DNA of 64,000 nt from Phycisphaerae bacterium (GCA_011050235.1 DRGC01000017.1:62001-126000), one strand, 5' to 3'. Positions 1,893 to 30,714 are shown, counted from the stretch's first letter. The notes: a model not told the origin generated them from the letters alone. Made by a program: numbers and translations.

Positions 1893-2594
1893 TCACAGGA
1901 AGAGGTCTTTGAGTTTCGCCTTGTCCTCCTTCAGTTCCTCTGGCTGGCCCTCGAACGCGATCTTGCCGAGCTTCATCGAGTAGACCCGGTGGCAGATATC
2001 CAAGACCTGCCGCACCTTCTGCTCGACGATCAGGATGGCCACACCCGCATCGCGGCTGATGTCCGCGATTCGTTTGAAGACCGTCGCCACGAGATTCGGA
2101 GCAAGCCCCAGGGAAGGCTCGTCCAACATCAGGAGCTTGGGCTTGGGAACAAGAGCACGGGCCAACGCCAGCATTTGCTGTTCTCCCCCCGACAGCCTGC
2201 CAGCATCTTGCCGAGCACGCTCCTTCAGCACGGGAAAGAGCTCCAGCATGTGGGCAATCCGTTCCTTGGCTTCCCTTCGCGGGAGCGGATAGCCGCCGAT
2301 CTCCAGATTCTCCATGACCGTAAGATCGGCGAAGACGCGGTTGCCCTGGGGAGCGAAGGTAATCCCGCGCGCCACGTTTTGGGCAGGCGTCGAGCCATTC
2401 GTGGGCGTGCCGTTGAGGCGAATCTGTCCCTTCCATACCGGGATCAAGCCGCAGACGGCCTTGAGCACCGTGGACTTACCCGCCCCGTTCGGCCCGATGA
2501 GTGTGACGATTTCACCCTCCCGGACGTCCAAGGACAGGCCGAAGACCACCTGCTTCTTGCCGTACCCGGTTTCCAGTTCCTTGATCGCCAGCAT
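1893..2594 (-). CDS. livF: LivF-type branched-chain amino acid ABC transporter ATPase
   Basis: This 233-aa ATPase of the Liv/HAAT importer class couples ATP hydrolysis to import through the LivH-LivM channel. Visible motifs are Walker A GPNGAGKST at residues 34-42, signature LSGGEQQ at 134-140 and Walker B LLMLDEP at 154-160. The length and the short helical domain fit LivF rather than the longer LivG. It is the last gene of the minus-strand operon, 8 bases after livG. The substrate may be an amino acid or another small amide or carboxylate, because the Liv family includes urea and aromatic-compound importers. Confidence 0.93.
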   Translation of the reverse strand: MLAIKELETGYGKKQVVFGLSLDVREGEIVTLIGPNGAGKSTVLKAVCGLIPVWKGQIRLNGTPTNGSTPAQNVARGITFAPQGNRVFADLTVMENLEIGGYPLPRREAKERIAHMLELFPVLKERARQDAGRLSGGEQQMLALARALVPKPKLLMLDEPSLGLAPNLVATVFKRIADISRDAGVAILIVEQKVRQVLDICHRVYSMKLGKIAFEGQPEELKEDKAKLKDLFL

Positions 2595-2602
2595 CTTCGC
2601 TC

Positions 2603-3361
2603 TCAGTCTATGTAAGCTTCGATGACCTTGGGGTCGTTCCGCACCTCCTGCGGCGTCCCCTCGCTCACCTTGGCTCCCGCGTCCATGAAGACGACCCGGT
2701 CACAGGTCTGCATCACGGCATCGAGGTCGTGCTCGATCAGGACCACAGACTTCCCGTTGTCGCGCAGATCGCGGATCATGCCCAGTATCTTCTCTTTCAT
2801 CTCCGGGGCGATGCCGGCCACCGGCTCGTCCAGAAGAACCACCTCCGCCCTCGCTGCAAGGCAGCAGACGAGACTCAAGAGCTTCTGCTGACCGTACGAA
2901 AGGTCCTCGGCCGGATCGTCGGCCTTCTCGGCGATCCCAGCATCTTCGAGCAGGCGAATTGCCTCTTGACGGTTTTGTCTCTCATGCTCCCGGCCCCTCC
3001 TCGCGCGAAAGAACACGTTCCCGAGTCTTTCGCCGGGCTGATCCCGGAAGGACAGAAGCGCGTTGTCCAAGGCGCTCAATTGGCGAATCAGGCGGAGGTC
3101 TTGAAATGTCCGGGCGATGCCGCGGTTGGCCAGCCTGTGGGGGGCAAGGCCGGTGATATCGGTGCTCTTCAGAGACACCTTGCCGCCTTCCGGGGCGATG
3201 AATCCCGTGACCACGTTGAAGAGCGTGGTCTTCCCGGCCCCATTCGGCCCGATCAGGCCGAGAATCTCCCCCCGGCACAGGTCGCACGAGAGGTCTGAGA
3301 GGGCGCGGACGCCGTCGAAGCTCTTGGACAGGCCGGTGACTTTCAATATCGCTTCGCTCAC
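2603..3361 (-). CDS. livG: LivG-type branched-chain amino acid ABC transporter ATPase
   Basis: This is the second ATPase of the importer, 252 aa from the chosen start. GTG 3361 is preferred over the upstream ATG at 3418 because AAGGAGG precedes it by about 7 bases and it overlaps the livM stop in a GTGA junction, typical of translational coupling. Motifs are Walker A GPNGAGKTT (residues 38-46), signature LSYGQQK and Walker B VVLLDEP. The C-terminal tail, with VLIEHDLDAVMQTCDRVVFM and a terminal EAYID, is characteristic of LivG. Confidence 0.93.
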   Translation of the reverse strand: MSEAILKVTGLSKSFDGVRALSDLSCDLCRGEILGLIGPNGAGKTTLFNVVTGFIAPEGGKVSLKSTDITGLAPHRLANRGIARTFQDLRLIRQLSALDNALLSFRDQPGERLGNVFFRARRGREHERQNRQEAIRLLEDAGIAEKADDPAEDLSYGQQKLLSLVCCLAARAEVVLLDEPVAGIAPEMKEKILGMIRDLRDNGKSVVLIEHDLDAVMQTCDRVVFMDAGAKVSEGTPQEVRNDPKVIEAYID

Positions 3362-4245
3362 TCCCGGGCCTCCTTGCCTTGAAACGCATACTCGCCCAGG
3401 AATCCTCGCGGCCGCCACATCATGAACGCAACCAGCAACCCCCCGTAGATGATCTGCCGCACGTTCGCCGCCACGGAGCTCGGCAGGCCGACGAAACGCA
3501 GGAGTTCAGGCAGGACAACAAGCACCACTGCGCCCACGACCGGCCCCCACAAGCTACCGGCCCCGCCGATGATGACGATGGAGAGGATGAATATCGACTC
3601 CATCACCGTGAAGCTCGTGGGATCTATGAAGCTGATGTAGTGGGCGTACATCACTCCGGCCACGGCCGCCATCCCGGCGCCGATGACGAAGACGAGAACC
3701 TTGTATGCAGCCACGTTCTTGCCCGCAGCCTGGGCGAACACCTCGTCCTCTCGGATCGCCTTCAGCACTCGGCCAAAGGGCGACCGCACGATCCTATGTA
3801 TCACCCACAACGTCAACGCGCAGAAGACGCCGACAAGTACCAGGAAGCCAAGCTGAGAGGAGACTTGCAGGCCGAAGATCGTCGGCTGTGGGATGCCGGG
3901 CAGACCCATCGGGCCGCCGGTAAAGGACACCCAATTGTTGAGGACGCTGAAGGCGATGACCTGGAAGGCAAATGTTGCGATGACGAAGTAGTCGTCACGG
4001 ATGCGCAGGGACGGGATTCCCACCAAGGCCCCGAGCAGACCGCTTAGAACAATAGCGCAGACGATGTTGACCAGGAAGGGGCTGTTGAACTTGAGGGCCA
4101 TGAGAGCGGCAACGTAGCCACCCACTCCGTAGAACGCGGCGTGCGCGATGGAGAGCAGGCCGGTGTGGCCCGCAATCAGGTTCAAAGACACTGACAGGAT
4201 TACGTAAATACCTATCAGTATCAGAATGTGCAGTAGATACTCCAT
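3358..4245 (-). CDS. livM: LivM-type branched-chain amino acid ABC transporter permease
   Basis: The 295-aa integral membrane protein has about eight hydrophobic segments beginning at residue 7. It carries LNLIAGHTGLLSIAHAAFYG (residues about 22-41), the conserved N-terminal block of the LivM/BPD_transp_2 family, and the late loop IIGGAGSLWGPVVGA that contacts the ATPase. It pairs with LivH to form the inner-membrane channel. Its stop overlaps the livG start, and livH ends 12 bases upstream. Confidence 0.93.
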   Translation of the reverse strand: MEYLLHILILIGIYVILSVSLNLIAGHTGLLSIAHAAFYGVGGYVAALMALKFNSPFLVNIVCAIVLSGLLGALVGIPSLRIRDDYFVIATFAFQVIAFSVLNNWVSFTGGPMGLPGIPQPTIFGLQVSSQLGFLVLVGVFCALTLWVIHRIVRSPFGRVLKAIREDEVFAQAAGKNVAAYKVLVFVIGAGMAAVAGVMYAHYISFIDPTSFTVMESIFILSIVIIGGAGSLWGPVVGAVVLVVLPELLRFVGLPSSVAANVRQIIYGGLLVAFMMWRPRGFLGEYAFQGKEARE

Positions 4246-4257
4246 CGTCTTCCTTGC

Positions 4258-5133
4258 TCACACCGTCGCTTTCGTGAGTTTCTTGCCCATGACGCCTTCC
4301 GGCCGCACAAATAGAAAGCCGAGAAGAACTACGAAAACGACTGGCTCTCGCCACTGTTGCCCGAGGTACCAGCCACCCACATTCTGCGCACTCGCTATCA
4401 ATATGGCCCCCATCACTAGGCCAAGCACGCGTCCGACTCCTCCTACCAGGACTGCAACAACAGCGGACAGCAAGGGCAGCAACCCCATGGTAGGTCTCAT
4501 ATCAACATCCAACGAGACCAAGATACCGGCGATTCCCGCAAGACCCGATCCAACAGCAAACGCGCCCAAGATGACCCGGTCTGACCTAACGCCCGTGATA
4601 GCAGCCAGTTCCGGATCACTGGCTACTGCGCGGAACTCCCGACCCGCCTTGGTATACCTGAGCGCCCATGCGACCATCGATGCAGCCACAGCAGCACATG
4701 CGATGATCGTTATCTGGATGTCCGTGAGCCTTGCACCTGCCACACTCACCCCCTTCGCTATGGTGGCAGATCGCACTGATTCGGTCTGGTCCCCAAAAGC
4801 TAGCGAGATCAGACTGGTCAACAGAATATACAGCCCGAGCGAGGCCACAAGCTGTACAACCCCAGAGGCAGATCGCTTCCTCAGCGGCCGATAAACTGCC
4901 AGTTCCATAGTGCAGCCAAGTGCGATGCACGTCAGCACCGACAATGTCGCTGACAGAGGTTGCGGCAGGCCGAAGACTCTGAAGAATACCAGGTTCATGT
5001 ATGCGCCAGCCGTGAAAGCTGCACCGTGGGCAAAGTGAAAGAATCGGCCAACACGATAAATGAGTGCGAAGCCAACTCCGACCAAGAGAATGATCGCTGC
5101 TGAGATGGCAGCGTTGGCCACAAGCTGATTCAT
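4258..5133 (-). CDS. livH: LivH-type branched-chain amino acid ABC transporter permease
   Basis: The product is a 291-aa polytopic permease. The open frame extends to 5199, but ATG 5133 is chosen: AGGAGG lies about 9 bases upstream and the product then begins MNQLVANAAISAAIILLVG, a normal LivH start. The family block FALIYRVGRFFHFAHGAAF is visible near residues 23-41, and the coupling loop region VLVGGVGRVLGLVMGA near the C terminus. It lies between the binding protein and livM and completes the importer. Confidence 0.92.
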   Translation of the reverse strand: MNQLVANAAISAAIILLVGVGFALIYRVGRFFHFAHGAAFTAGAYMNLVFFRVFGLPQPLSATLSVLTCIALGCTMELAVYRPLRKRSASGVVQLVASLGLYILLTSLISLAFGDQTESVRSATIAKGVSVAGARLTDIQITIIACAAVAASMVAWALRYTKAGREFRAVASDPELAAITGVRSDRVILGAFAVGSGLAGIAGILVSLDVDMRPTMGLLPLLSAVVAVLVGGVGRVLGLVMGAILIASAQNVGGWYLGQQWREPVVFVVLLGFLFVRPEGVMGKKLTKATV

Positions 5134-5143
5134 CGATGACCTC

Positions 5144-6295
5144 CTACTCAGAGCCCGCCAGACGAGAGAATACGCCGTTCCGAACCGTTTTGAGGACAAC
5201 AGGTTTCACGACATCGCCGTTCTCATCGAATTCTATGACGCCGGCAACACCTTTGTAGGATCCCATCGTATCTAGGGCCTTCTTCAGTGCCTCGCCAGTC
5301 ACATCTTCATCTAGGCGGCTGGCAACATGGCATATGAGCATGAAGGCGTCGTATGCTTGTGCCTCGACCCACCCCGGTTCATGCCCATAGCGAGAGCGGA
5401 ACTTCTTGACGAACTGCTGAACCTGCGCATCACTGGATGCGGGATCAAAGCCCGTCGCGAGGGGGTAGATGACCCCCTCGGCGGCATCCCCGGCCAGTTG
5501 CAGGAACTTGTCGTCTTCCACAGCCGTTGTACCAAGGACTTGTGTCGAGAGGCCAAGCTCACGTAGTTGCCGCACGATCGTCGCCGTATCCGCGAAGTAG
5601 CCGGCAATGTAAAGGGCATCGGGGGCATCCATCTTCATCTTCGCCAGGAAAGACCGGTAGTCTGTCCCCTCGGCTTGGTATGCCTCCATGACCGGTATTG
5701 AGCCGCCACCCGCCTCAAAGGTCTTCTTGAATACCTGTGCGATAGAGGTCCCGTAGTCGTTGTTCATATGAAAGATCGATACTCGCCGGTAATCTCTGCT
5801 GAGAGCCAGTTTGGCGATTGCCCTACCTTCGGCCAGATCACTCGGCCAGATTCGGTAAATGTAATGACCAGCATTGGTTATTGCGGGAGACGAGGAGGTC
5901 GGCGAGAGTAGCACAACGCGATTGTTCTCGGCGATCGGCGCTGCGGCCAATGTAACAGCGCTCACAATGTCGCCGATCACTATTGGAACATGGTCCGCAC
6001 TAATCAGTTTCCGAATGGCGCTCACTCCGGTCTTCGGGTCCGCTCTTGAGTCTTCGTAGATGACGCGCACGGGACGACCACCACAGCCGCCCTCCGCGTT
6101 CACTATAGACACGGCTAGGTCAATTGCCTCCCGCCCCTTTTCACCATAGGATGCAGCATCCCCGGTCAGCGGGAATACGACACCGATCCGCAGTTCATCA
6201 TCATGCCCCTGTCCTATGGCAACGATCATCGCTATGACCACGGCCACCATGACCAACACGCCTCCCACAAGCCAGTATGTTCTTGTTCTATTCAT
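5144..6295 (-). CDS. livK: LivK/AmiC-type ABC transporter substrate-binding protein
   Basis: This 383-aa type I periplasmic binding protein has an N-terminal hydrophobic segment (residues about 8-27, WLVGGVLVMVAVVIAMIVAI) that acts as signal or membrane anchor. No lipobox Cys is seen at its end. The mature part opens with LRIGVVFPLTGDAASYGEKG, the classic LivJ/K/AmiC start, and contains PIVIGDIVSAVTLAAAPIAE and LLSPTSSSPAITNAG, a conserved ligand-contact region. ATG 6295 overlaps the upstream SDR stop (ATGA), and the stop sits inside the livH ribosome-binding region. It sets importer specificity; the ligand cannot be read from sequence. Confidence 0.9.
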   Translation of the reverse strand: MNRTRTYWLVGGVLVMVAVVIAMIVAIGQGHDDELRIGVVFPLTGDAASYGEKGREAIDLAVSIVNAEGGCGGRPVRVIYEDSRADPKTGVSAIRKLISADHVPIVIGDIVSAVTLAAAPIAENNRVVLLSPTSSSPAITNAGHYIYRIWPSDLAEGRAIAKLALSRDYRRVSIFHMNNDYGTSIAQVFKKTFEAGGGSIPVMEAYQAEGTDYRSFLAKMKMDAPDALYIAGYFADTATIVRQLRELGLSTQVLGTTAVEDDKFLQLAGDAAEGVIYPLATGFDPASSDAQVQQFVKKFRSRYGHEPGWVEAQAYDAFMLICHVASRLDEDVTGEALKKALDTMGSYKGVAGVIEFDENGDVVKPVVLKTVRNGVFSRLAGSE

Positions 6296-7071
6296 AATGT
6301 TGTTTCCTCGATGGCCTGCACGCTCGGGCTGAGACCTCCAGCAACGGGCAGTACAGTGCCAGTCATGTAGGACGATGCAGATGATATCATGAACGCCGCG
6401 ACCTCAGCGATCTCGCTTGGCGAAGCGAAGCGTCCCTGTGGTATCTCTCGCCTTTTCTGTTCAAGGTAGCTCTCTGAGAAATCTGCGCACTGATCCGTTT
6501 CGGTCCAGCCAACAGAAAGAGCGTTAACCCGAATGCCCATTTCGCACAATTCCACAGCAAGACATTGGGTGTATTCTTCCAGCGCCGCCTTGGCAATATT
6601 GCGGTGCGCATATCCCCGCTCAGGTAGCCTGACCGTGACAGACGAGATATTCAGAATGCTTGAACAATCCGAAACGGCCAGGTGCGCCAAGGCGGACCTC
6701 ACACAGTTGAAGCTGCTGCGCAACGTGCCGTGCAATTGCTCTTGCATCTGTTCCCAGGTAAGCTCTGAGATGCCAAGCCGTTGGAACGGAGTATGCGCGT
6801 TGTTGACGAGAACGTCCAGACCGCCGAAAGCGCCTGCAGTTGCTTCAACCAATCGATGCGCTTGGTTTGGGTCTCTCACATCCGCCTGAATTAGAATGCC
6901 TTCCCCACCGACTTGTCGAATTCGGTTTAGCGTTCCCTCGGCGGCCACTGTATCCTTGAGGAAATTCACTGCTATTCTCGCCCCTTGCTCCGCACAACGC
7001 ACCGCGATCGCTGAGCCGATGCCACGACCTGCCCCCGTAATGAGCACCACCTTTTCCTTAAGCGTCTTCAC
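6292..7071 (-). CDS. short-chain dehydrogenase, FabL/enoyl-reductase-like
   Basis: This Rossmann NAD(P)-dependent oxidoreductase is 259 aa from GTG 7071, 10 bases after the upstream stop. The open frame continues to 7239, but the added N terminus is not SDR-like. The cofactor motif TGAGRGIG is at residues 12-19 and the central NNAHT near 93. The active site is unusual for a classic SDR: instead of Tyr-x3-Lys it has Y-x6-K (YAHRNIAKAAL), the spacing of enoyl-ACP reductases FabI/FabL. The following AVELCEMGIRVNALSVGWTE and the C-terminal GTVLPVAGG also match FabL-type enzymes. It is embedded in the radical SAM/Liv operon, so a tailoring role on a small acyl or amino compound is plausible but inferred. 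Confidence 0.85.
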   Translation of the reverse strand: MKTLKEKVVLITGAGRGIGSAIAVRCAEQGARIAVNFLKDTVAAEGTLNRIRQVGGEGILIQADVRDPNQAHRLVEATAGAFGGLDVLVNNAHTPFQRLGISELTWEQMQEQLHGTLRSSFNCVRSALAHLAVSDCSSILNISSVTVRLPERGYAHRNIAKAALEEYTQCLAVELCEMGIRVNALSVGWTETDQCADFSESYLEQKRREIPQGRFASPSEIAEVAAFMISSASSYMTGTVLPVAGGLSPSVQAIEETTL

Positions 7072-7081
7072 GATGCTTGCC

Positions 7082-7867
7082 CTACTCTTTCGGACCAAGA
7101 AACGTGCGTCTAACGGCATTCGAGGCTTTGCCAAATATGCCAGGAAGAATGAACAAGCTAACTGTTTGCCAGAGGGCCCATCCAACAGCTCTTGGTATCT
7201 GTTTCGGTGCGATCGGTAGCCAAGGGGGACATAGTGCATTACTCTCGCTATACCAATCCCCCTCTCCGCCCTTCACCGCGGTAATCAGTCGTTTGTGCAA
7301 CTTGTCGTCTGCAAAAATAGACCTTGCTGCAGAATCGCCGAAATCGCGGTTCGTGTCCCATCCGAAAATGCCCATATACAGCATAGTGCCAGGCTGATGC
7401 CGCTCGAAATCGCTGAAGAAAATGATCTTATCATTTCCAGATTCCACATATCCGATATCCAAGCTTCGTATGATTGGGCACCCAAGACGCTGTATGACAT
7501 GGCGCTTCGTCGTATAGAGAAGTGTCCCGTTGTTGGTCGCCCCCTTCTCGAAATCTTCCCTTCGTTGCACTTTGTCTCCGCGTGGCTTGTCGTACTCCTT
7601 GTACTGCGATCGGTTTTTCAGAATGAGCACACGCACCTTCTGCTTGCATGTGAAGGCCGAGAACCAAGAATCTGCCTTCGTGAGGGGATTATCTTGACCG
7701 TCGGATATCGGAGATCCATAACATGTCCAAATTAGAGCATCTGTTGCGTGGCTTGATATGCTCGTAGCGATGTTCTCGTACTCCCCATAGTTAACGTACA
7801 AGACAAGGGGCTTGGTTAAGGCCAACGCCCACAACGGGTCGTAGATGTTGTTGTTGGGGGGAGGCAT
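7082..7867 (-). CDS. hypothetical protein encoded between radical SAM and SDR genes
   Basis: The product is 261 aa and not recognised. The start overlaps the stop of the radical SAM gene by one base (TAATG) and the stop is 10 bases before the SDR start, so the three are very likely translated together. The N-terminal half is alpha/beta-like (KPLVLYVNYGEYENIATSI), the middle is charged (RSQYKEYDKPRGDKVQRRED), and a core reads IGYVESGNDKIIFFSDFERH. The C terminus has a Trp/Phe-rich hydrophobic stretch (AVGWALWQTVSLFILPGIFG, about residues 226-245) that could be one membrane helix or amphipathic anchor. Tight coupling suggests it supplies the substrate, scaffold or second enzyme for the radical SAM protein. 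Confidence 0.75.
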   Translation of the reverse strand: MPPPNNNIYDPLWALALTKPLVLYVNYGEYENIATSISSHATDALIWTCYGSPISDGQDNPLTKADSWFSAFTCKQKVRVLILKNRSQYKEYDKPRGDKVQRREDFEKGATNNGTLLYTTKRHVIQRLGCPIIRSLDIGYVESGNDKIIFFSDFERHQPGTMLYMGIFGWDTNRDFGDSAARSIFADDKLHKRLITAVKGGEGDWYSESNALCPPWLPIAPKQIPRAVGWALWQTVSLFILPGIFGKASNAVRRTFLGPKE

Positions 7868-8676
7868 TATGCGGCTCCGATCAGTTGGAATGCGTCAGTA
7901 ACCTGCAACTTGTCAGAGATGCTAATCGGTCCAGAGCGGAAGACACCATTGGGGCTCACCGTAGCACAGCCAATGCGCAGGGCACAGGCGTCATAATCCG
8001 GCCTATCTGGAACATAATGGAAACTATCATCAACAAGGAGGTCCCTGTAGCTGTTGCGAATTAATAGCAATGATCGTTTGAGCCTGTACGAGAATGACTT
8101 GGTACCGCAGTACGAAGAGGCGCGTCCCGCTACGGTAAGGGGCCTCACCAGAAAGCGGGCGCTCAGGGATTCGCAGAGCTCTGCAATCGCCGGGAGTTCC
8201 GACACGTTGCCATCCGAAACAGCGGTACTGATTTCCACCGGAACACCAAGGGAGAAGAACGTATAGATGGCCTCCATTGCTTGTCGCCATGCCCCGGAGA
8301 TCCCCCGACGTTGGTCGTGGACCTCTGCGGTCATTGCATCCAAGCTGACCTGAGCGACGGAGAGGCACGAAAGAAGCCGTGACTCAGACTTTGCCAATTC
8401 CGGGATATGTGTTCCATTGCTGAGAACACTTGTTGAAAGGCCAAGCGACTGGGCCCCTCGCAGTAGTTCAACCGTGCCGTCCCAGAGAAACGGTTCGCCA
8501 CCAGTAATGTGTACGCTCTGGAGGCCCATGGGAATCATGGCGCGGAGGATCCGAAGCCATGTAGCTGGTGAGAGCTCGGCTCCCTTGCGGAACGGCCCCG
8601 AGTCATTAAAGCAGTAGAAACACCGCTGGTTGCAGCGGTGCGTCACTTCGATGTTCAAATGTCTCATACGAACCAT
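7867..8676 (-). CDS. radical SAM protein with a short SPASM-like C terminus
   Basis: The product is 269 aa. The [4Fe-4S]/SAM motif is C-x3-C-x2-C at Cys15, Cys19 and Cys22 (THRCNQRCFYCFN), followed by the GGEPF motif at 59-63 and SLDAMTAEVHD near 133. The C terminus has two Cys in DYDACALRIGCATVSPNGVF, resembling a cut-down SPASM/twitch region that could hold one auxiliary cluster. It is shorter than classical SPASM maturases (350 aa or more). ATG 8676 is supported by AAGGAGC 6-7 bases upstream. It leads the operon after the small regulator. Related proteins modify peptides or small molecules; no precursor peptide was recognised here. Confidence 0.88.
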   Translation of the reverse strand: MVRMRHLNIEVTHRCNQRCFYCFNDSGPFRKGAELSPATWLRILRAMIPMGLQSVHITGGEPFLWDGTVELLRGAQSLGLSTSVLSNGTHIPELAKSESRLLSCLSVAQVSLDAMTAEVHDQRRGISGAWRQAMEAIYTFFSLGVPVEISTAVSDGNVSELPAIAELCESLSARFLVRPLTVAGRASSYCGTKSFSYRLKRSLLLIRNSYRDLLVDDSFHYVPDRPDYDACALRIGCATVSPNGVFRSGPISISDKLQVTDAFQLIGAA

Positions 8677-8700
8677 CAGTTGCTCCTTGGTTGAAGTCGG

Positions 8701-8901
8701 TCACTTCTTATGAAGCTCTGTCCACATCTCTTCGATGCGGCGCAAAGCCAAGGGAGACGGCTTGCCCCGGCCGTTTTCCCAGCGGTTTACGGTTGACCAC
8801 GTCACGCCGACCTTGGCCGCGAACTGTTCCTGCATCAGCCCAAGCTTGGTGGGCAGATTGCGGATGGTTTCCGCTACTGCGTTGCCCTTCTCTCTTGGCA
8901 T
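8701..8901 (-). CDS. small XRE-family helix-turn-helix regulator
   Basis: The 66-aa protein consists almost wholly of one HTH: LMQEQFAAKVGVTWSTVNRW (residues about 22-41) matches the Cro/CI helix 2-turn-helix 3 pattern and is followed by ENGRGKPSPLALRRIEE. It has no oligomerisation or ligand domain. It lies 24 bases upstream of the radical SAM gene on the same strand and probably heads that transcript, so regulation of the operon is a reasonable inference. Confidence 0.8.
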   Translation of the reverse strand: MPREKGNAVAETIRNLPTKLGLMQEQFAAKVGVTWSTVNRWENGRGKPSPLALRRIEEMWTELHKK

Positions 8902-8968
8902 CCGAATCTTCCCGGATTTCGCCGTGCAGACGATCCCACTTCAGAAGCTATTGCAGATGATATGGCCT

Positions 8969-8996
8969 ATTGTGGGGCAAGCAACTCTCTTGTCAA
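8969..8996 (-). promoter_or_regulatory. candidate sigma70 promoter for the XRE/radical SAM/Liv operon
   Basis: On the minus strand a perfect -35 TTGACA (8991-8996) is followed after 16 bases by CACAAT (8969-8974), a 4/6 match to the -10. It lies about 70 bases upstream of the regulator start codon and is the best match in the 8.9-9.3 kb gap. The -10 is weak, so this remains tentative. Confidence 0.35.
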
Positions 8997-12343: not shown

Positions 12344-15300
12344 ATGGAAAACCAATTCTTCAAACGTCCGATCCTCAACTCCCCCTATGAATGCCCGGCT
12401 CGGCACTGGGAGCTTGATGCCGATGGCCAACCCACACAGAAGATCATCGAGAGCCGCCGCCTCGTGGAGCTCATCACGCCAATTCCCAAGCCCAAGAAGC
12501 GCAAGAAAGAATCATCTGGCCAGAAAGACCTGGTATTTGACGAGGGCAAGGGACTGTCGACCCAGGAGCAGCAGTACGATCCCACCCCGATCATCAATGA
12601 GATCCGTCAACATGTGGCCCGATGGCGGGGCTGGCCGAACCCGAGCGAATGGCAGGTGACCCCGGAGACCGCCCGCCTCCTCCAGCACTGGCGACACCAT
12701 AAGTTCGGCAACTTTCGCCCGTTCTTCTGCCAGATCGAGGCAGCCGAGACCGCCATCTGGCTGACGGAGGTAGCTCCCAAATCAGGTAAGGCGGGCAAGG
12801 GGTTCCTTGAACATTTGGCCAACGCCAATGGCCAGGCTAACCCGGAACTGATGCGGCTGGCGCTCAAGCTGGCCACCGGCGCGGGCAAGACGACCGTCAT
12901 GGCCATGCTCATCGCCTGGCAGACAATCAACGCCGTCCGCCGCCCCAATAGCAAGAAGTTCACCCGAGGCTTCCTGGTGGTCACGCCGGGCATCACGATC
13001 CGCGACCGCCTTCGCGTACTTCAGCCCAATGACCCCGACAGCTATTACCAGAGCCGCGAGCTTGTCCCCAGCGACATGCTGCGTGATCTCGGGCGCGCCG
13101 AAATCGTCATCACGAACTTCCACGCATTCAAGCTCCGCGAGCGCATGGACCTGTCCAAGGGCGGCCGGTCACTCCTTCAGGGACGAGGTGAAGAGCTGAG
13201 TACATTGGAGACTGAAGGCCAGATGCTCCAGCGAGTCATGCCCAACTTGATGGGCATGAAGAACATATTGGCCTTCAATGACGAAGGTCATCACTGCTAC
13301 CGGGAGAAGCCCGGCGAGGGCGACGAAGGCGATCTCAAGGGAGATGAACGGAAGGAAGCCGAGAAGAACACCGAGGCTGCCCGCGTGTGGATTTCCGGCC
13401 TGGAAGCCGTCAACCGCAAGCTTGGCCTTTCGCAGGTGATCGACCTGTCCGCCACGCCGTTCTTCCTGCGAGGTTCAGGCTACGCCGAGGGCACGCTGTT
13501 TCCCTGGACGATGAACGATTTCTCCCTGATGGACGCCATCGAATGCGGAATCGTCAAGCTGCCGCGCGTCCCGGTGGCCGACAACATTCCAGGCGAGGAG
13601 ATGCCGAAGTTCCGCAACCTGTGGGAGCACATCGGCAAGAGAATGCCCAAGAAGGGGCGTGGCAAAGGCCAATTCCTCGACCCACTCAGCATCCCCGTGG
13701 AACTCCAAACTGCCCTGGAGGCCCTCTATGGCCACTATGAGAAGACATACGCCCTTTGGCAGAATGCCGGCATTCGTGTCCCGCCGTGTTTCATTGTCGT
13801 CTGCAACAACACCGCCACGTCGAAGCTCGTGTACGACTACATCTCCGGGTTCCACCGGGAGAATGAGGACGGCTCGACCAAGCTGGTGAACGGCAGACTC
13901 GAACTGTTCCGCAACTTCGACGAGCACGGGAACCCACTCGGCCGGCCCCGGACGCTGCTGATCGACAGTGAGCAGCTCGAATCCGGCGAGGCATTGGACA
14001 AGAGCTTCCGCGACATGGCCTCCGACGAGATCGAGCGATTCCGCCGTGAGATCATCGTGCGCACCGGCGACCGTCGCCAAGCCGAGAACATTTCGGACCA
14101 GGATCTGCTCCGCGAGGTCATGAACACCGTCGGCAAAGAGGACCGGCTCGGCGGGAAGGTCCGTTGCGTCGTCTCCGTCTCCATGCTCACTGAGGGCTGG
14201 GACGCCCAAACGGTCACCCACGTTCTGGGCGTTCGGGCGTTCGGCACGCAATTGCTCTGCGAGCAGGTCATCGGCCGGGCGCTGCGCCGCCAGTCCTACG
14301 ATCTCAACGAGGAAGGCCTCTTCAACGTCGAATACGCCGACGTGCTGGGTATCCCGTTTGATTTCACCGCCAAGCCCGTCGTCGCTCCGCCCCAGCCGCC
14401 TCGTGAGACCATCCAGGTCAAGGCTGTCCGCCCCGAACGCGACCACCTGGAGATCCAGTTCCCTCGCGTTGAGGGCTACCGTGTCGAATTGCCCCAAGAG
14501 CGGTTGACCGCAGACTTCAACGAAGATTCCGTGTTGGAACTCAATCCAGATCTCGTGGGGCCGTCCATAACCCGCAATGAAGGCATTATTGGGGAAGGTG
14601 TGGATCTCAACTTGGTCCACACGGGTGACCTGCGCCGATCAACTCTACTGTTCCACGTCACCAAGCGCTTGCTGTACAAGTGGCGAGACCCAGGAGAGGA
14701 GCCCAAGCTGCACCTGTTCGGCCAGCTCAAGCGGATCACCAAGCAGTGGCTTGACGGCTATCTCAGGTGTACGGGAGGAACATATCCGGCCCAGCTCATG
14801 TACTTGACGCTGGGCGACATGGCTTGCGAACGCATCACGGCCGGCATCACCCGTTCGCTCATCGGCGAGCGGCCCATCAAGGCCGTGCTCGACCCGTATA
14901 ATCCGACCGGCTCGACCGTCCACGTCAATTTCAACACCTCCAAGCAGAACCGCTGGCAGACCGACGCCCGCCGCTGTCACATCAACTGGGTGATCCTTGA
15001 CAGCGACTGGGAAGCTGAGTTCTGCCGCGTCGCCGAGGCCCACCCCCGCGTCAAGGCCTACGTCAAGAACCACAACCTGGGCCTGGAGGTCCCGTACCGC
15101 TACGGCTCGGAGACCCGAAGGTACATCCCGGATTTCATCGTGCTGGTCGACGATGGCCGGGGGGAGGACGACCTGCTGCGCCTGATCGTTGAGATCAAGG
15201 GCTACCGACGCGAGGACGCCAAAGAGAAGAAGTCCACCATGGACACCTACTGGGTGCCTGGTGTGAATGGCCTCGGCAGCTACGGTCGCTGGGCGTTCGC

Positions 15301-15400
15301 GGAGTTCACAGAGGTCTACCAGATCCAGTCCGACTTCGAAGCCCGGGTCGAAGCCGAGTTCAACAGGATGATTGATTCAACTACCGCACAGTCGGTGTAA
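12344..15400 (+). CDS. res: type III-like restriction enzyme, Res helicase-nuclease subunit
   Basis: The product is 1018 aa. An SF2 helicase core with Walker A LATGAGKTTV (about 177-186), motif II DEGHH (about 312-316), motif III SATPFFLRG (about 368-376) and motif VI EQVIGRALRRQSY (about 640-652) is followed by a C-terminal PD-(D/E)XK nuclease: RRYIPDFIVLVDD then LLRLIVEIKGYR (about 925-955), with the D...E-x-K catalytic set. The layout matches type III Res and the related BPTD_3080-type enzymes. It would translocate on DNA and cut when partnered with the methyltransferase that begins 11 bases downstream. All key motifs look intact. Confidence 0.92.
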   Translation: MENQFFKRPILNSPYECPARHWELDADGQPTQKIIESRRLVELITPIPKPKKRKKESSGQKDLVFDEGKGLSTQEQQYDPTPIINEIRQHVARWRGWPNPSEWQVTPETARLLQHWRHHKFGNFRPFFCQIEAAETAIWLTEVAPKSGKAGKGFLEHLANANGQANPELMRLALKLATGAGKTTVMAMLIAWQTINAVRRPNSKKFTRGFLVVTPGITIRDRLRVLQPNDPDSYYQSRELVPSDMLRDLGRAEIVITNFHAFKLRERMDLSKGGRSLLQGRGEELSTLETEGQMLQRVMPNLMGMKNILAFNDEGHHCYREKPGEGDEGDLKGDERKEAEKNTEAARVWISGLEAVNRKLGLSQVIDLSATPFFLRGSGYAEGTLFPWTMNDFSLMDAIECGIVKLPRVPVADNIPGEEMPKFRNLWEHIGKRMPKKGRGKGQFLDPLSIPVELQTALEALYGHYEKTYALWQNAGIRVPPCFIVVCNNTATSKLVYDYISGFHRENEDGSTKLVNGRLELFRNFDEHGNPLGRPRTLLIDSEQLESGEALDKSFRDMASDEIERFRREIIVRTGDRRQAENISDQDLLREVMNTVGKEDRLGGKVRCVVSVSMLTEGWDAQTVTHVLGVRAFGTQLLCEQVIGRALRRQSYDLNEEGLFNVEYADVLGIPFDFTAKPVVAPPQPPRETIQVKAVRPERDHLEIQFPRVEGYRVELPQERLTADFNEDSVLELNPDLVGPSITRNEGIIGEGVDLNLVHTGDLRRSTLLFHVTKRLLYKWRDPGEEPKLHLFGQLKRITKQWLDGYLRCTGGTYPAQLMYLTLGDMACERITAGITRSLIGERPIKAVLDPYNPTGSTVHVNFNTSKQNRWQTDARRCHINWVILDSDWEAEFCRVAEAHPRVKAYVKNHNLGLEVPYRYGSETRRYIPDFIVLVDDGRGEDDLLRLIVEIKGYRREDAKEKKSTMDTYWVPGVNGLGSYGRWAFAEFTEVYQIQSDFEARVEAEFNRMIDSTTAQSV

Positions 15401-15411
15401 GGGATTGCAGC

Positions 15412-18252
15412 ATGGCGAAGAAAGTACGGAAGAAAGCGCGGAAGAAAGCCAAGAAGACGGTCGCCGTTATCAAACACGATGACGCATCACGAAAGAACAT
15501 CCCCACGGCCGAGATGGAATCGGTGATGCATGCCGACGACCAGTCGCCCGTCCGCATCGCCTACGAGCGGCGCAACCGCGATCTGGACCCTCAGCTTGTC
15601 TGGCGTGGTAAAGATGAACAGGACTGGTCGGACCTCGTTGTCCATGCCCCGCCGCTGTACATCCAGGAGAAGGTCAAGCCCAAGGTCCTCATCGACGATC
15701 TGCTGCGACGGACGCAGCAGCAGGAACGTGCCGAGACTGAAAAGGCTGCGCCGTTGCTGTTTGCCGATGCCTTCGCCGACTTCAACGGCCTGCCTGACGA
15801 TGCCCGATCTACCGAGTTCTATCAGCACGACGCCAACTGGACCAACCGCATGATTCTGGGCGACAGCCTCCAGGTCATGGCCTCTCTCGCCGAGCGTGAA
15901 GGCCTGCGCGGCAAGGTCCAGTGCATCTACCTCGACCCGCCATACGGCATCAAGTTCAACTCCAACTTCCAGTGGTCCACCACCAGCCGCGATGTCAAAG
16001 ACGGCAAGGCCGACCACATCACCCGCGAGCCAGAACAGGTCAAGGCCTTCCGCGACACGTGGCGCGACGGGATTCACTCATATCTAACCTATCTCCGCGA
16101 CCGTCTCACCGTCGCAAGAGACCTGCTGCACGAGTCCGGCTCGATTTTCGTGCAGATTGGGGATGAGAATGTCCACCGCATCCGGGATCTTCTCGATGAG
16201 GTGTTTGGCCACGACAATGCCCTTTCGCTCATTCCATTCGCAAAGACAACGAGTAGTTCATCGAGCCTTGAGCTGTCAGCCGTGTGTGACTACCTGATCT
16301 GGTATGCGAAGGACCGCAGCAAGTGCAAGTATAGACAACTTCACTTCGAGAAAGTCGCTGGGGGTGCGGGTGGCACAGGGTATAGTCTGATCGAAGAATC
16401 TCCCGGGGCATTCCGCCGCATGTCCTCTGCTGAGAACAGCGACCCGGAAGCAACAGCTCGGAACGCGAGAATCGCTCAGTTCGACAACCTGACAAGTTCG
16501 AGACCCGCGGGGAAAGGGGATGTCCGTGAGTTCTCATACCACGGGAAGATGTTTGACCCATCAAGGGGGACGTTCAAGACGGATCAACAGGGGCTTGATA
16601 CGCTCGCGATGGCCGGCAGATTGGGTATTGCTGGGAACACTCTTAGATACGTCAGATATCTCGACGACTTCGCAGCGTTTCCGCTGAGCAATCTGTGGAC
16701 GGACACAACCGTCGCAGGCTTTGCCGCCAACAAGCAGTACATTGTTGAGACCACGCCGAAGGTCGTTGAGCGTGCCATCTTGATGGCCACCGACCCCGGC
16801 GACCTTGTGCTTGATCCGACATGTGGTTCGGGGACAACCGCCTACGTGGCGGAACAATGGGGTCGGCGGTGGATTACAGTCGACACGTCACGTGTCTCAC
16901 TGGCGCTTGCCCGAGCGAGAATCATGGGAGCGAGATACCTCTACTATCTTCTGGCTGACAGTTCAGAGGGGAAGCAGAAGGAAGCGGAGATCACACGAAC
17001 GGAGTCATCGGCGGCCGCTACATTTGGCAACATCAAGCATGGCTTCGTCTATGAGCGTGTGCCGCACATCATGCTCAGTTCCATCACTCGTAACGCAGAG
17101 ATCGACGTAATCTGGGAGAAGTTTCAGGAGATGCTTGAGCCACTACGAGGGAAACTCAACAAGGCGCTCGGGAAGGAATGGGAAGAATGGGAAATCCCTC
17201 GCGAAGCCGGGGAGAAATGGTCGGATGAGGCAAAGACACTCCATGCCGACTGGTGGCGGACCCGCATCAACCGCCAGAAAGAGATCGACGCCTCCATCGC
17301 CGCCAAGGCTGACAACGAGTACCTGTACGACAAGCCCTACCAGGACAACAAGAAGGTCCGCGTGGCTGGGCCGTTCACCGTCGAATCCTTAAGCCCTCAC
17401 CGCGTGCTGGCCGTGGATGCGGATGATGAGTTGATCGACCCGCATCAGCCCAAGCCCGAAACCGGCGGCGACGAGGAGAGCTTCGTCGCGATGATCCTGG
17501 AGAACCTCAAGACCGCCGGGGTCCAGCAGGCGCACAAGGAAGACAAGATCGACTTCAGCTCGATCAAAGGCTGGCCGGGCGACTACATCTGCGCCGAGGG
17601 CCTGTATGCCGATGGTGACGGCGCGGGCGATGCCAAGCGTGCGGGCATCTTCATCGGCCCGGAGTTCGGCACGGTCAGTCGGCAGGACTTGGTGGCTGCT
17701 GCACGCGAGGCCGGGGACGCCAATTTCGACGTGTTGATCGCCTGCGCGTTCAACTATGACGCCCATTCCTCGGAGTTCGACAATCTCGGCCGGGTCCGCG
17801 TGCTCAAGGCTCGGATGAACGCCGATCTTCACATGGCCGACGACCTGAAGAATACCGGCAAGGGCAACCTGTTCGTGATCTTCGGCGAACCGGACATCGA
17901 CATCCTGCCGGCCGCCGACGACCAGATTCAGGTGAAGATCAACGGCGTGGACGTATTCCACCCCAACACCGGCGAGGTCCGCAGCGATGGGGCCGAGGGC
18001 ATCGCCTGCTGGTTCATCGACACGGACTACAACGAGGAGAGCTTCTTCGTCCGCCACGCCTACTTCCTCGGCGCAAACGACCCATACAAGAGCCTCAAGA
18101 CCACCCTCAAGGCCGAGATCAACGTCGATGCTTGGGAAACACTGCATAGCGACACCTCCCGCCCGTTCGACAAGCCCGAATCCGGCCGGATAGCAGTGAA
18201 AGTAATCAACCACCTTGGCGATGAGGTGATGAAAGTGTTTCGGGTGGAGTGA
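15412..18252 (+). CDS. mod: type III-like DNA methyltransferase, Mod subunit
   Basis: The product is 946 aa. An extremely Lys/Arg-rich N terminus (KKVRKKARKKAKK) is followed by a beta-class N6-adenine/N4-cytosine methyltransferase: catalytic motif IV YLDPPYGIKFN at about 173-183, a central variable region (about 230-440) that would hold target recognition, and SAM motif DPTCGSGTTAYVAEQ at about 467-481. That motif order (IV before I) is typical of Mod. It is longer than usual Mod proteins because of a roughly 350-residue C-terminal part (GDYICAEGLYADGDGAG; FNYDAHSSEFDNLGRVRVLK) of unclear role. It should methylate the site read by Res and provide specificity. The gene is intact. Confidence 0.92.
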   Translation: MAKKVRKKARKKAKKTVAVIKHDDASRKNIPTAEMESVMHADDQSPVRIAYERRNRDLDPQLVWRGKDEQDWSDLVVHAPPLYIQEKVKPKVLIDDLLRRTQQQERAETEKAAPLLFADAFADFNGLPDDARSTEFYQHDANWTNRMILGDSLQVMASLAEREGLRGKVQCIYLDPPYGIKFNSNFQWSTTSRDVKDGKADHITREPEQVKAFRDTWRDGIHSYLTYLRDRLTVARDLLHESGSIFVQIGDENVHRIRDLLDEVFGHDNALSLIPFAKTTSSSSSLELSAVCDYLIWYAKDRSKCKYRQLHFEKVAGGAGGTGYSLIEESPGAFRRMSSAENSDPEATARNARIAQFDNLTSSRPAGKGDVREFSYHGKMFDPSRGTFKTDQQGLDTLAMAGRLGIAGNTLRYVRYLDDFAAFPLSNLWTDTTVAGFAANKQYIVETTPKVVERAILMATDPGDLVLDPTCGSGTTAYVAEQWGRRWITVDTSRVSLALARARIMGARYLYYLLADSSEGKQKEAEITRTESSAAATFGNIKHGFVYERVPHIMLSSITRNAEIDVIWEKFQEMLEPLRGKLNKALGKEWEEWEIPREAGEKWSDEAKTLHADWWRTRINRQKEIDASIAAKADNEYLYDKPYQDNKKVRVAGPFTVESLSPHRVLAVDADDELIDPHQPKPETGGDEESFVAMILENLKTAGVQQAHKEDKIDFSSIKGWPGDYICAEGLYADGDGAGDAKRAGIFIGPEFGTVSRQDLVAAAREAGDANFDVLIACAFNYDAHSSEFDNLGRVRVLKARMNADLHMADDLKNTGKGNLFVIFGEPDIDILPAADDQIQVKINGVDVFHPNTGEVRSDGAEGIACWFIDTDYNEESFFVRHAYFLGANDPYKSLKTTLKAEINVDAWETLHSDTSRPFDKPESGRIAVKVINHLGDEVMKVFRVE

Positions 18253-18278: not shown

Positions 18279-19366
18279 ATGGCGGTAATCATTCTTGGAG
18301 CTGGCGCGACGCGAGGGTGTAGCTTCGTGAACAATGCCAAGGACCCGTCGTGCCCTCCTTTGGACGGTGACTTCTTCACTCAGCTCCAGCGAGCGCGGGG
18401 GTCAAAGCATAGGGCGCTCATCGATGACGTTGTGAAAGATACTGTTGAGATGTTCGGGGGAAACTTTGACGTCACGATGGAAACGGTATTCACGACCTTG
18501 GAGCACACAATCCGAATGCTCAAGGCGACCAGGGAAAGTCGCGACTTCAAGCTGTCCGATCTAAGGAAGAAGCGAGGCAGGCTATGGCAGCTGCCTTCGA
18601 GGAGTCGCTCACTGAACGCAACGATCGGGGGGAGTCAACACGTCACCTTCGAAAGTGCGACTATCATGATAAGCTCGTTGCGGAACACGTTAGGTGCAGC
18701 GATGAGATCATCTCCTTCAACTACGATTGCGTAATAGATGACAGTCTTCGCCGGCAAGGCGGCGGCATCTGGAATCCACGCTATGGGTACGGTTTCAACC
18801 TCGGGCCGCGGGGCGCCCGGATGACCGGAGACGCACATTGGATGCCCGGAGAGCCGGGCACCAAGGATCAGACCGTGAAGCTCTACAAACTGCACGGGTC
18901 CTTCCACTTCCAAATATCTGGCATGGATTCTCAAGACGAGTCAGGGGACCAGGCCAAGTCGAAAGAGAAGAAGCCCTATACGGTGATCCTGAAGAGAAGG
19001 CCATACACGAAACAGAAGGGGAGCCTGAGATTCTCGATCATTCCCCCTGAATGGCACAAAGCCTACGACGAGGGAGCCTTCGCTGACTTGTGGGCCAAAG
19101 CTGCCAAGGCGATCCATCGGGCTGATTCGATCGTCTTCATCGGCTACTCTCTTCCGGCAACGGATTTGCATTCCACGGCACTGTTTCGGACGAGCGTGGG
19201 TAAGGCGGGGCTAAAGCATCTTACCGTTGTCAACCCGGATCAAGAGGCCCGGCGTCGCGTCCGCACGGTACTCCAACGCGGATGCACCAAGGGGACCAGA
19301 ATGCTGAGTTTTGATAGCCTTGAGCATTTTGCGGCAGCTGATCGCTCATTATGGGCGAGATCGTAG
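18279..19366 (+). pseudogene. SIR2-family protein, split by a -1 frameshift
   Basis: Frame one (18279 to about 18560, AAGGAG upstream) gives MAVIILGAGATRGCSFVNNA and PPLDGDFFTQLQR, the NAD-binding start of SIR2-like proteins, and reads into DFKLSD. From about 18560 the sense continues one base back as SKEEARQAMAAAFEESLTE, then IISFNYDCVIDDSL, KLYKLHGSFHFQ and DSIVFIGYSLPATDLH, all conserved SIR2-like blocks, ending at 19366. Joined length is about 362 aa. The junction has no slippery heptamer, so mutation or sequencing error is more likely than programmed shifting. SIR2 domains in defence loci act as NADases. It sits 26 bases after mod and 30 before the helicase gene, so it is probably part of the same operon. 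Confidence 0.75.
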
Positions 19367-19396
19367 TGTTGGGATGGCCCGAATCGGAGTCAGGTG

Positions 19397-21469: not shown

Positions 21470-21560
21470 GTTCGGTTAGCCGTATTGAGAACACTGAGGG
21501 CGAACAAGGACGGCAAGTGCATCTGCCGTGTCTATGGGTATGGGCCAAGGAGACACGATA

Positions 21561-22592
21561 ATGGGCTTGAAGACTTGCAGCGTAACGGTTCGTGAAGTTG
21601 CTGGCGACGGCAGCGAGTTCCCTGGGCCGATAAGAAATCTGCTCTGCGAAGCTGTCTCGGCCATTTCCGCCCAGGAATTGCACGGGCTCATGGACAAGCA
21701 TGAATCGGACCCCGCCAATTTCGACGGCAGGATAGAAGAGCTCATTCGGTCAATGCAGCCGGACCTGACAGTGCATGCAAATCATCGAGTGTTCGACGGC
21801 GCGAAGTTTAATAACGATCTCATCCTTGAGACGGACAGTGTTTTCGTGTGCCTTGAGATCGAGAAGAGCTCTATGTCTCGCTTTGAGTTCGATATCCTCA
21901 AGATGCAGGCCTTCGCGAGTCAAAGACTGGCTGAGCTGCCTGGGGCAAGAGTGTATGGCGCATTCATCGTGCCAGCCGACAACATCGTCGCCAGACACAT
22001 TTCCGGTAATGCACGAGAGTCATCCTACAAGTATCTGAGCCGGCTGAGCCGCTTGGTTGCTCAGATTGCTCCATCTCTCCTGGACGACGTTCTGATCGTC
22101 GGCTATGGCGTCTCAATGCCGGACGGCCAAGTGACCCAACGGGAGGGCAAGGCAATGAAGAAGAAGCTTGCGAATGTGGACAAGAAGAGCTCGGGGAACG
22201 TTGTGGTCGCCGATGCCGGCCTGCTGCCGGAAGAGCTTCTGTGGGATGTGCTGAGGGACTATCCACAGGAATTGGTAAGTGCACTGCGAAAGTGCCTGGC
22301 GGCCAAGTACCCGGGGCTCCGCGAGAAGATCAATCGCAACAGCAAGTACCTGGGGTACGCCAATGGTGGCAGCGACGCCATGTACGTGTATGTCAGAAAG
22401 AACTATCTTCTTATCGATCTAGGGGTTTCCGCCGACCTGTCCGAGGACTTGAGGCAGCTCGGCTTCGAAGTGAAGCCACGCGATAATTTCCAGGCCAAGA
22501 TCGGATGGTTGACTGGGCTGATCGTGCCGCACGATACGGACAAGTTTGCTGACGTCACGAAGCTGGCGATTGAGGCCCTGGCACGCGTGTAG
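21561..22592 (+). CDS. hypothetical protein with a nuclease-like N-terminal half
   Basis: The product is 343 aa. ATG 21561 is chosen over 21528 because AAGGAG lies 9 bases upstream. The N-terminal half has LILETDSVFVCLEIEKSSMS (about 86-105), an E-x-E-K arrangement after a hydrophobic strand that resembles PD-(D/E)XK restriction nucleases. It is followed by a helix (RFEFDILKMQAFASQRLAEL) and a strand (ARVYGAFIVPADN), also in keeping with that fold. The C-terminal half contains GGSDAMYVYVRKNYLLIDLG, similar to the small domain seen next to predicted endonucleases. It is 91 bases after the helicase gene on the same strand. I infer a nuclease effector; no family name is certain. Confidence 0.6.
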   Translation: MGLKTCSVTVREVAGDGSEFPGPIRNLLCEAVSAISAQELHGLMDKHESDPANFDGRIEELIRSMQPDLTVHANHRVFDGAKFNNDLILETDSVFVCLEIEKSSMSRFEFDILKMQAFASQRLAELPGARVYGAFIVPADNIVARHISGNARESSYKYLSRLSRLVAQIAPSLLDDVLIVGYGVSMPDGQVTQREGKAMKKKLANVDKKSSGNVVVADAGLLPEELLWDVLRDYPQELVSALRKCLAAKYPGLREKINRNSKYLGYANGGSDAMYVYVRKNYLLIDLGVSADLSEDLRQLGFEVKPRDNFQAKIGWLTGLIVPHDTDKFADVTKLAIEALARV

Positions 22593-22722
22593 ACTATGTG
22601 CGGCGGAAGATCTCGGCCAGGCCCACGCGTCGGGGGCCTGGGAGAGCCCACGCCGAGTCGATTCTGGTCCGTTCGTAATGATACCAATGATGGCGCCTCG
22701 TTGGCATACTTGCACGCATTGC

Positions 22723-23322: not shown

Positions 23323-23701
23323 CGGCGTCTCCTTTGTGCGAACAGGCGCAGACGTTCGCCAACATCAAAGCAGGCCTGTCATCCAGGGGCAATTTTCTGC
23401 CGAGAAGTACTCGTGGCGGTTAGTCACTATCGCCTCGGCCGAACCGGGTTGGCAGATGGCACCGACCGTGCTAGACTCACACCCGTGCCACAGGCATGAT
23501 GTGACAACTTAGACGACGCGCGAGCGTCAAGTTGCTGTCTCCCAAGAAACGCTACCTGGGCAATTCATGCCCGGAACACGAAGACAGCGCTTGGACCGCG
23601 CTCCCGATAAGGGAGCGTCGGCCATGTGCTGTTTCGTGTGCCCTGTAGCGGGGCCTTGGGAGCGGCCTTGGTTCGGCGCTCCTTGTCATTTCGGGATATC
23701 C
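23323..23701. other. divergent spacer, no gene seen
   Basis: This lies between the leftward recombinase and the rightward DUF429 gene. The frame open from 23567 extends the DUF429 protein upstream, but that extension is Arg/Cys/Pro-rich and lacks family character. No clear promoter or repeat stood out. Confidence 0.45.
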
Positions 23702-24379: not shown

Positions 24380-24530
24380 TGGGCTGACGGGTGCCGGCGC
24401 CATATGAACGACACTATCAGGCAGCTAACACCCGACCGAGTTGGTGCATTACGATGTTGGCTTGACCCAACTAGACCTTCAAGGCCATAATGATGCAACA
24501 CTTCGGTCCAAGGGATCTGGGAGATCGGAC

Positions 24531-25229: not shown

Positions 25230-25250
25230 TCTCTACTCAACGAGCCAACA

Positions 25251-26027: not shown

Positions 26028-26092
26028 CGCTCGCTCAAAATTGCCCCTCTATCCACCCACGAGGCGCGCATGCCCTATGCAAGAATTAGGGC

Positions 26093-28870: not shown

Positions 28871-29121
28871 ATGCCACCTGTATTGTCCACAGATCACGCC
28901 GCTGGCCCCAGGTACCCCAGGACGACGCCGGGACGAGATCAGGGGAGACGGGGGAAGTCCGGACGAGATTCTTCGTCTCCGAAAATTACGCGTAAGGTTA
29001 CGCAGTTGTCTAATGGCCAGGGCCCGCGGGTGACCACGAATGGTAGCAGTTGGGCCCGCCGCTGGTTGGTCCAGCGGCTGGCGGAGCGGGCGGTGGAGAT
29101 ACTGCAGGACGACGACGCGAT

Positions 29122-29125
<4 letters not shown>
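28871..29125 (+). CDS. small basic protein preceding the recombinase
   Basis: The product is 84 aa from ATG 28871, with GAGGAG about 9 bases upstream. It is very rich in Arg, Gly, Ser and Pro up to residue 60, then has an amphipathic C-terminal helix (WARRWLVQRLAERAVEILQD). The stop overlaps the recombinase start in an ATGA, which argues for real translation. A copy of the GCGTAAG palindrome lies inside it (28990-29003). Function unknown; a recombination directionality or accessory role would fit the position. Confidence 0.5.
28990..29003. repeat. GCGTAAGGTTACGC near-palindrome
   Basis: This differs from the perfect palindrome at 11653-11666 by one base. It lies just upstream of the integrase gene, so an integrase-linked binding site is possible but unproven. 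Confidence 0.35.

Positions 29126-30714
<1,589 letters not shown>

Follow-up and report, generated by a model that had tools for sequence, protein, structure and literature searches.

The nine genes that run from position 8901 down to 1893 of the DNA analysed here constitute, judging from their content and from their relatives in other genomes, a member of a modular and rare class of operons in which a Liv-type importer is combined with exchangeable cargo genes. The DNA, referred to as the window, is a stretch of 64,000 nucleotides from contig C17 of a genome of 4.0 Mb, and all nine genes lie on its minus strand. Within the class the window operon is atypical: livK and livH are adjacent and the cargo is located upstream. 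Gene content and order, transporter relatedness, cargo recurrence, the coupling between LivK and cargo, composition boundaries and linkage to defence genes were read directly from the sequence.

The first gene (8701..8901) encodes an XRE/HTH_3 protein of 66 aa (HTH_3, E=3.7e-10). It is followed by the genes for a radical SAM enzyme of 269 aa (7867..8676; Radical_SAM, E=6.7e-22), an orphan protein of 261 aa without family match (7082..7867) and an SDR with a GTG start at 7071 (6292..7071; adh_short_C2, E=9.5e-53). The importer consists of a LivK-type substrate-binding protein (5144..6295; Peripla_BP_6, E=2.5e-65), the permeases LivH (4258..5133; BPD_transp_2, E=2.7e-35) and LivM (3358..4245; BPD_transp_2, E=3.3e-49), and the ATPases LivG (about 2603..3361; ABC_tran, E=3.1e-29, BCA_ABC_TP_C, Walker A GPNGAGKT) and LivF (1893..2594; ABC_tran, E=7.7e-33; GPNGAGKS, LSGGEQ and LMLDEP intact). 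From the XRE gene to livF the genes are spaced by 24 bp, an overlap of 1, 10 bp, an overlap of 4, 10 bp, 12 bp, an overlap of about 4 and 8 bp. Short gaps and overlaps, at most 24 bp across all nine genes, point to an operon-like arrangement. Coordinates and family searches thus agree with the preliminary description, which had listed an XRE protein, a radical SAM enzyme, an unknown protein, an SDR and a full Liv importer in one direction with overlaps. A promoter-like TTGACA-N16-CACAAT site lies upstream of the XRE gene (8969..8996, minus strand); with one such site found against 3.0 expected, the promoter scan was not above chance, and matches in the terminator scan were no more frequent than chance. 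The third-position GC content (GC3) lies at 0.58-0.62 for the five genes that begin with the radical SAM gene and end with livH, at 0.78-0.79 for livM, livG and livF, and at 0.73 for the XRE gene.

All parts of a HAAT importer are present, i.e. a Peripla_BP_6 receptor, two BPD_transp_2 permeases and two ABC ATPases, one of them with BCA_ABC_TP_C. Since the motifs of LivG and LivF are intact, transport is plausible. LivK has an N-terminal hydrophobic anchor, in which a lipobox was not seen, and scores below the cut-off of the leucine-binding protein model (173 vs 477 bits). The SDR contains the cofactor motif TGAGRGIG and carries Y-x6-K (as GYAHRNIAK), not Y-x3-K. The former is the arrangement of FabI/FabL-type enoyl reductases, so that the earlier label "enoyl-reductase-like" is apt; the protein stays below the FabL family cut-off (152 vs 328 bits). 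The XRE protein is probably the regulator of the operon. Over 53 aa it is 49% identical to the XRE segment of an HmaA-like helicase that adjoins the operon of locus L070.

The radical SAM enzyme displays the CxxxCxxC motif as C15-x3-C19-x2-C22 (CNQRCFYC) together with TGGEPF. A full SPASM domain comprises seven cysteines and two auxiliary clusters. After residue 200 the window protein keeps only two cysteines (231 and 237), such that its tail cannot be a full domain and is read as a SPASM remnant; a Pfam search gave no SPASM match to the protein. The compact enzyme with a cut-down SPASM-like tail that had been proposed is hereby borne out. The best NCBIfam matches were ScmE (88 bits) and PqqE (83 bits), all far under their cut-offs, and the best PDB match was PqqE (6c8v, E=4e-21). 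By these comparisons the protein is a PqqE/ScmE-like core with a SPASM remnant. A structure model from three aligned rows resolved the core only (mean pLDDT 49) and left the tail unresolved. The viperin models of PADLOC (pVip) also match the core (E=1.5e-18) and the size is similar. We rejected an identity as viperin: the NCBIfam viperin model scored 54.8 bits against a cut-off of 180, with the PqqE, ScmE and MoaA models scoring higher, the viperin-like PDB match was at E=4e-6 compared to 4e-21 for PqqE, and the tail is a SPASM remnant.

For the orphan protein no match was obtained in Pfam, NCBIfam, PADLOC or PDB, and no homologue was found in 392 genomes of the phylum, in the genome_contigs collection (searched with 8-mer seeds) or among viral contigs, plasmids and phages. 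It has a C-terminal hydrophobic helix (residues 227-245), whose maximum Kyte-Doolittle value over 19 residues, 1.52, is just below the usual 1.6, and no N-terminal transmembrane segment. Folding of the single sequence reached a pLDDT of 33. We regard it as a candidate for the membrane-partner slot that is occupied in other members of the class (see below). A PLD-like fold of the orphan protein and the membrane partners, suggested by inspection of the sequences, was not supported by any search. Close relatives were found neither for the radical SAM protein nor for the orphan protein, so that the exact gene set of the window is unreplicated.

Relatives of the operon were found by LivK and LivM searches of the host phylum, the class and one second phylum, after which the gene neighbourhoods were read. 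Gene content and the anammox-type genomes among the relatives suggest that the host phylum is probably Planctomycetota. In 13 loci (L027, L028, L031, L048, L066, L068-L073, L076 and L078) cargo of 1.75-5.0 kb is located between livK and livH. The window, with a livK-livH gap of 10 bp, has no cargo at this position. In 17 canonical Liv cassettes for which both genes were called (L030, L086-L091 and L124-L133, with L123 left out) the gap measures 19-444 bp. The cargo of the 13 loci consists of enzymes and, nearly always, of a protein with one to four predicted transmembrane helices plus a soluble domain. Cargo upstream of livK is found in the window, in L123 and in L029, where it is a phosphoesterase-methyltransferase fusion, while L049 and L067 carry a methyltransferase downstream of livK and L120, from another phylum, has a truncated methyltransferase reading frame upstream of livH. 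The class is rare: LivM matches at E<=1e-60 occurred in 11 of the 392 phylum genomes and 14 of the 377 class genomes, and in the plasmid and viral collections no close LivM was found at the thresholds used.

The enzymes recur in different combinations, some of the B12-type and methyltransferase assignments being made by motif inspection and others by Pfam. B12-type radical SAM proteins occur in L028, L068, L071 and L078, SPASM or other radical SAM proteins in L031, L068, L070 and L071, methyltransferases in L031, L071 and L076 as well as upstream of livK in L078, and AlaRS-like proteins in L048, L072 and L073. Polyprenyl synthases are found in L027 and L069, each with both DDxxD motifs, and in L066, which lacks both. 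Not every cargo enzyme need therefore be active; the L066 protein (13170-14267) might be a non-catalytic isoprenoid binder. L068 and L071 have in common a protein of 451 and 387 aa, respectively, between livH and livM, and the radical SAM proteins of L068 and L070 are 77% identical. Radical SAM genes make up 9 of the 48 listed cargo genes, compared to 13 matches in the entire 4.0-Mb genome of the window. Radical SAM genes of several subfamilies lie between livK and livH in L028, L031, L068, L070, L071 and L078, i.e. in at least six other genomes, contrary to the possibility raised beforehand that such genes are never found beside Liv genes elsewhere. The pairing noted in the preliminary description is indeed unusual, but the idea of a single odd operon has to be given up: the operon belongs to a modular class, and radical SAM enzymes are only one of the interchangeable types of cargo found there. 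We rejected the idea that orthologous radical SAM proteins occur throughout the class: the window enzyme reaches at most 27% identity and 54 bits with the others, and paralogues of its own genome score higher.

Several further arrangements occur in other loci. In L131 (6374-9850) a livKHMGF set that is canonical in all other respects is followed directly by two methyltransferase genes and a B12-radical SAM gene, mutually overlapping. L067 (8684-12000) has, downstream of livK, a gene for a protein of 1105 aa or more with an N-terminal methyltransferase; its C-terminal part (IPKADLHVHVGS) has an adenosine-deaminase-type look by eye only, without Pfam confirmation. L049 (1-14000) contains two tandem Liv gene sets, then livK, the methyltransferase, proteins of 208, 631 and 275 aa and a receiver-like protein, the latter four being of signalling type and without database matches. 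In L046 (4522-5729) cas2- and cas1-like genes stand directly past a livHMGF set, and L046, L047 and L066 have short four-helix-bundle-like genes (112-144 aa) between livH and livM.

The modular character becomes apparent when the transporter subunits are compared. The window LivM shares 85% identity with those of L027 and L074 and 72% with that of L120 from the other phylum, whereas its LivK is only 43% identical to the L027 protein. The LivK of L027 is in turn closest to that of L069 (62%), a locus that shares both cargo genes with L027, although the LivM proteins of the two loci are only 56% identical. Despite LivM identities of 68-85%, the cargo is wholly different among the window, L027 and L028. 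In permutation tests over 15 loci, shared cargo was predicted by LivK similarity once LivM had been taken into account (p=0.011), but not by LivM similarity once LivK had been (p=0.12). With L123 counted in the class, the GC3 of the cargo was below that of LivMGF in 15 of 16 loci (Wilcoxon p=3e-5), and the GC3 difference between LivK and LivMGF was larger in the class than in canonical cassettes (p=2e-4). The coupling of LivK with cargo and the composition boundaries argue for receptor plus cargo as a replaceable module on a conserved LivM-G-F core. In the LivM tree the window belongs to a starred set of five rows with L027, L028, L074 and L120, and a set of six rows adds L029. The starred set spans several families and two phyla, which indicates horizontal transfer. 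The cargo-bearing loci do not form one clade; with L123 entered as cargo-free, the label requires 6 changes on the tree.

One member ties the importer to a known defence effector. The order in L123 (5394-15669 of G1029) is an ATPase gene, a gene for a 955-aa protein, a gene for a three-TM protein and livKHMGF, with livK starting 25 bp after the three-TM protein gene and preceded by an AGGAGG site. The 955-aa protein matches RdrB of RADAR (PADLOC E=1e-29; PDB 8fnw E=4e-20). By gene order and these matches, L123 is a RADAR-Liv operon. To our knowledge, published RADAR systems are without an ABC importer.

Defence genes also lie close to the window operon. A type III restriction-modification pair (Res 12344-15400 and Mod 15412-18252, plus strand; PADLOC MTase_III 1417.7 bits, ResIII E=2e-5) is located 3.4 kb upstream on the opposite strand, which makes it context outside the operon, and is joined by SIR2-like and UvrD/GajB-like genes at 3-12 kb from the operon. 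The region beside it (18584-28459) contains the SIR2-like gene, the UvrD-like helicase, a RAMA/DUF2924 protein and a prim-pol replication protein. Near other loci of the class we found BovA of Borvo (L029, 695 bits), HmaA (L070, 535 bits), a type I REase (L076, REase_I, 277 bits), PDC-M68B (L031, 208 bits), an AriA-like protein (L120, 92 bits) and E1-E2/JAB (L074). These neighbours were chosen by eye, which is not a proper enrichment test. When ten further neighbours of class loci were compared with PADLOC, two matches were obtained, one of them marginal; ten neighbours of canonical cassettes gave mostly no or weak matches and one strong RtcR-like match (382 bits). For neighbours picked in this way, we find the trend of defence-gene proximity across the class convincing.

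Recombinase genes were present in 7 of 20 class loci and in none of 19 canonical loci (p about 0.005) when only matches to queries from another locus were counted and L123 was labelled canonical; with any class-locus query the count was 8 of 20. At 29050..30714 of the window the 3' end of a large serine recombinase gene (plus strand; Resolvase, Recombinase, Zn_ribbon_recom) overlaps the 3' end of a tRNA-Met on the minus strand (30641-30714, ARAGORN). The pair marks the edge of an integrative element, inside which the operon may or may not lie; a second attachment site of the element and its left boundary were not found. A related element sits elsewhere in the same genome: at G000:C62:49841-49919 the end of the recombinase gene, together with some 40 bases of the tRNA, recurs at 90% identity. 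The window further contains an intergenic dispersed repeat (439-674) that is 89% identical over 236 bp to positions 2120-2352 of L010, within which shorter repeats occur at 1815, 12115, 14914 and 17846, and a direct repeat of 150 bp (40471-40620 and 41840-41985, 92% identical) amid secreted-protein genes. The surroundings of the class are defence islands and mobile elements, not catabolic genes.

The genetic organization suggests small-molecule immunity or signalling in this class. Function, ligand and defence role are what we infer for the class as a whole. The explanation that we tentatively prefer, giving it somewhat less than an even chance, is that a Liv importer and its cognate receptor work together with enzymes for a system-specific small molecule in a mobile, defence-island-associated unit, whose likeliest purpose would be defence against phage or competitors. 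The enzymes of the cassette (in the window the radical SAM enzyme and the enoyl-reductase-type SDR) would make, modify or act on this molecule. LivK, tuned to the molecule or its precursor, would capture it outside the cytoplasm, and LivHMGF would import it, be it as alarm signal, as antiviral metabolite or as substrate. In other members a membrane-anchored partner would respond to the molecule; in the window the orphan protein would perhaps fill this position, and the XRE protein would control expression of the operon. The role could lie in signalling an alarm, in taking up an antiviral metabolite, in salvage around a toxic effector, which RADAR might need, or in a competitive natural product. 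A more specific form of this explanation, which we consider rather improbable as it stands, is a chemical immunity at population level: each cassette would make its own alarm or antiviral molecule, and a matching LivK with the Liv importer would collect it from neighbouring cells or from kin that have lysed. The response would be executed by the membrane partner or by the enzymes, and receptor and synthase would be swapped together as a specificity module, in a pherotype-like manner, on the fixed LivMGF core.

The cargo could also be that of natural-product cassettes, which would produce a signalling or competitive metabolite and employ the Liv importer for reuptake or kin-specific uptake, with defence genes being merely co-cargo of the islands. 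We consider this unlikely but worth serious attention. The enzymes encoded in the cargo are those of biosynthesis (radical SAM and B12-radical SAM proteins, methyltransferases, AlaRS-like proteins and the polyprenyl synthases of L027 and L069 with both DDxxD motifs), LivK follows the cargo, and the methyltransferase and B12-radical SAM genes directly past livF in L131 fit as well. Nearly every locus, however, encodes a membrane-anchored protein that does not look biosynthetic, the RADAR-livK operon L123 connects the importer with an effector of proven defence function, and in a casual, not systematic, reading of these operons no exporter, carrier domain or precursor peptide was noticed. The earlier proposals, import with subsequent unusual chemistry or a pathway for a small molecule that is taken up again, are still among the best readings; nothing supports a peptide as substrate.

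Liv-family importers commonly adjoin metabolic genes, as seen for the canonical cassettes L125, L129 and L130. Ordinary metabolism, i.e. an importer for a scarce nutrient with processing enzymes as in catabolic Liv operons, would agree with the intact LivG and LivF motifs that make transport plausible. It is hard to reconcile with a complete change of a biosynthetic and compositionally distinct cargo at 68-85% LivM identity, or with operons that are rare and patchy and whose cargo often lies beside recombinases, so that we hold it to be improbable. Least probable, and in our judgement quite doubtful, is a chance juxtaposition of an XRE-radical SAM-orphan unit and an independent SDR-livKHMGF importer operon. 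It would agree with the position of the window cargo upstream of livK, with the singleton status of both the radical SAM protein and the orphan protein, and with the scarcity of genes in the stretch towards the type III restriction-modification genes, which adjoins a mobile element. The radical SAM gene, orphan gene, SDR gene and livK are, however, joined by overlaps or gaps of at most 10 bp, a single GC3 level extends from the radical SAM gene through livH and shifts only at livM (0.58-0.62 to 0.79), and upstream cargo recurs in L029 and L123.

If the preferred explanation of a receptor and enzymes dedicated to one small molecule is true, exchangeable receptor-plus-enzyme cassettes, one of them with the RADAR deaminase, would link uptake or sensing of small molecules to defence, and the class would lead to a series of metabolites not yet explored, with one for each cassette. 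As receptor and enzymes change together, the ligand of a given LivK should show which compound its cassette produces or acts upon. We know of no solute importers that are standing parts of bacterial immune systems. The open-access full text, to which our survey was confined, yielded no description of this operon class or of RADAR with transporters. We therefore provisionally take the rare operon class and its architecture as new and apparently undescribed. An eLife 2020 paper on conflict systems (PMC7159879) mentions a radical SAM effector as well as a periplasmic-binding domain, both in architectures different from this one and without a Liv importer.

Compared to known systems, the core sequence of the window enzyme is closest to the SPASM/twitch maturases (PqqE, ScmE, MftC, SkfB), from which it differs by lacking the set of auxiliary-cluster cysteines and by having an importer as partner, with no precursor peptide gene seen. 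Canonical LivKHMGF importers (HAAT) for branched-chain amino acids have the same five subunits, the same Pfam domains and intact ATPase motifs. In contrast to these, the class has a built-in enzyme cassette, usually a membrane partner and a mobile defence-island setting, and its LivK and LivH diverge while LivMGF is conserved. RADAR, in which RdrA/RdrB occur with SLATT or another membrane accessory, shares RdrB, the upstream ATPase gene and the three-TM protein with L123, whereas the window operon is without the deaminase. CBASS, Pycsar and Thoeris resemble the class only in how they might work: they too combine a small-molecule enzyme with a membrane protein bearing a soluble domain, are modular and reside in defence islands. 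Where these systems use a nucleotide cyclase or TIR domain, neither of which was found in the class, the operons described here have a periplasmic receptor and an importer.
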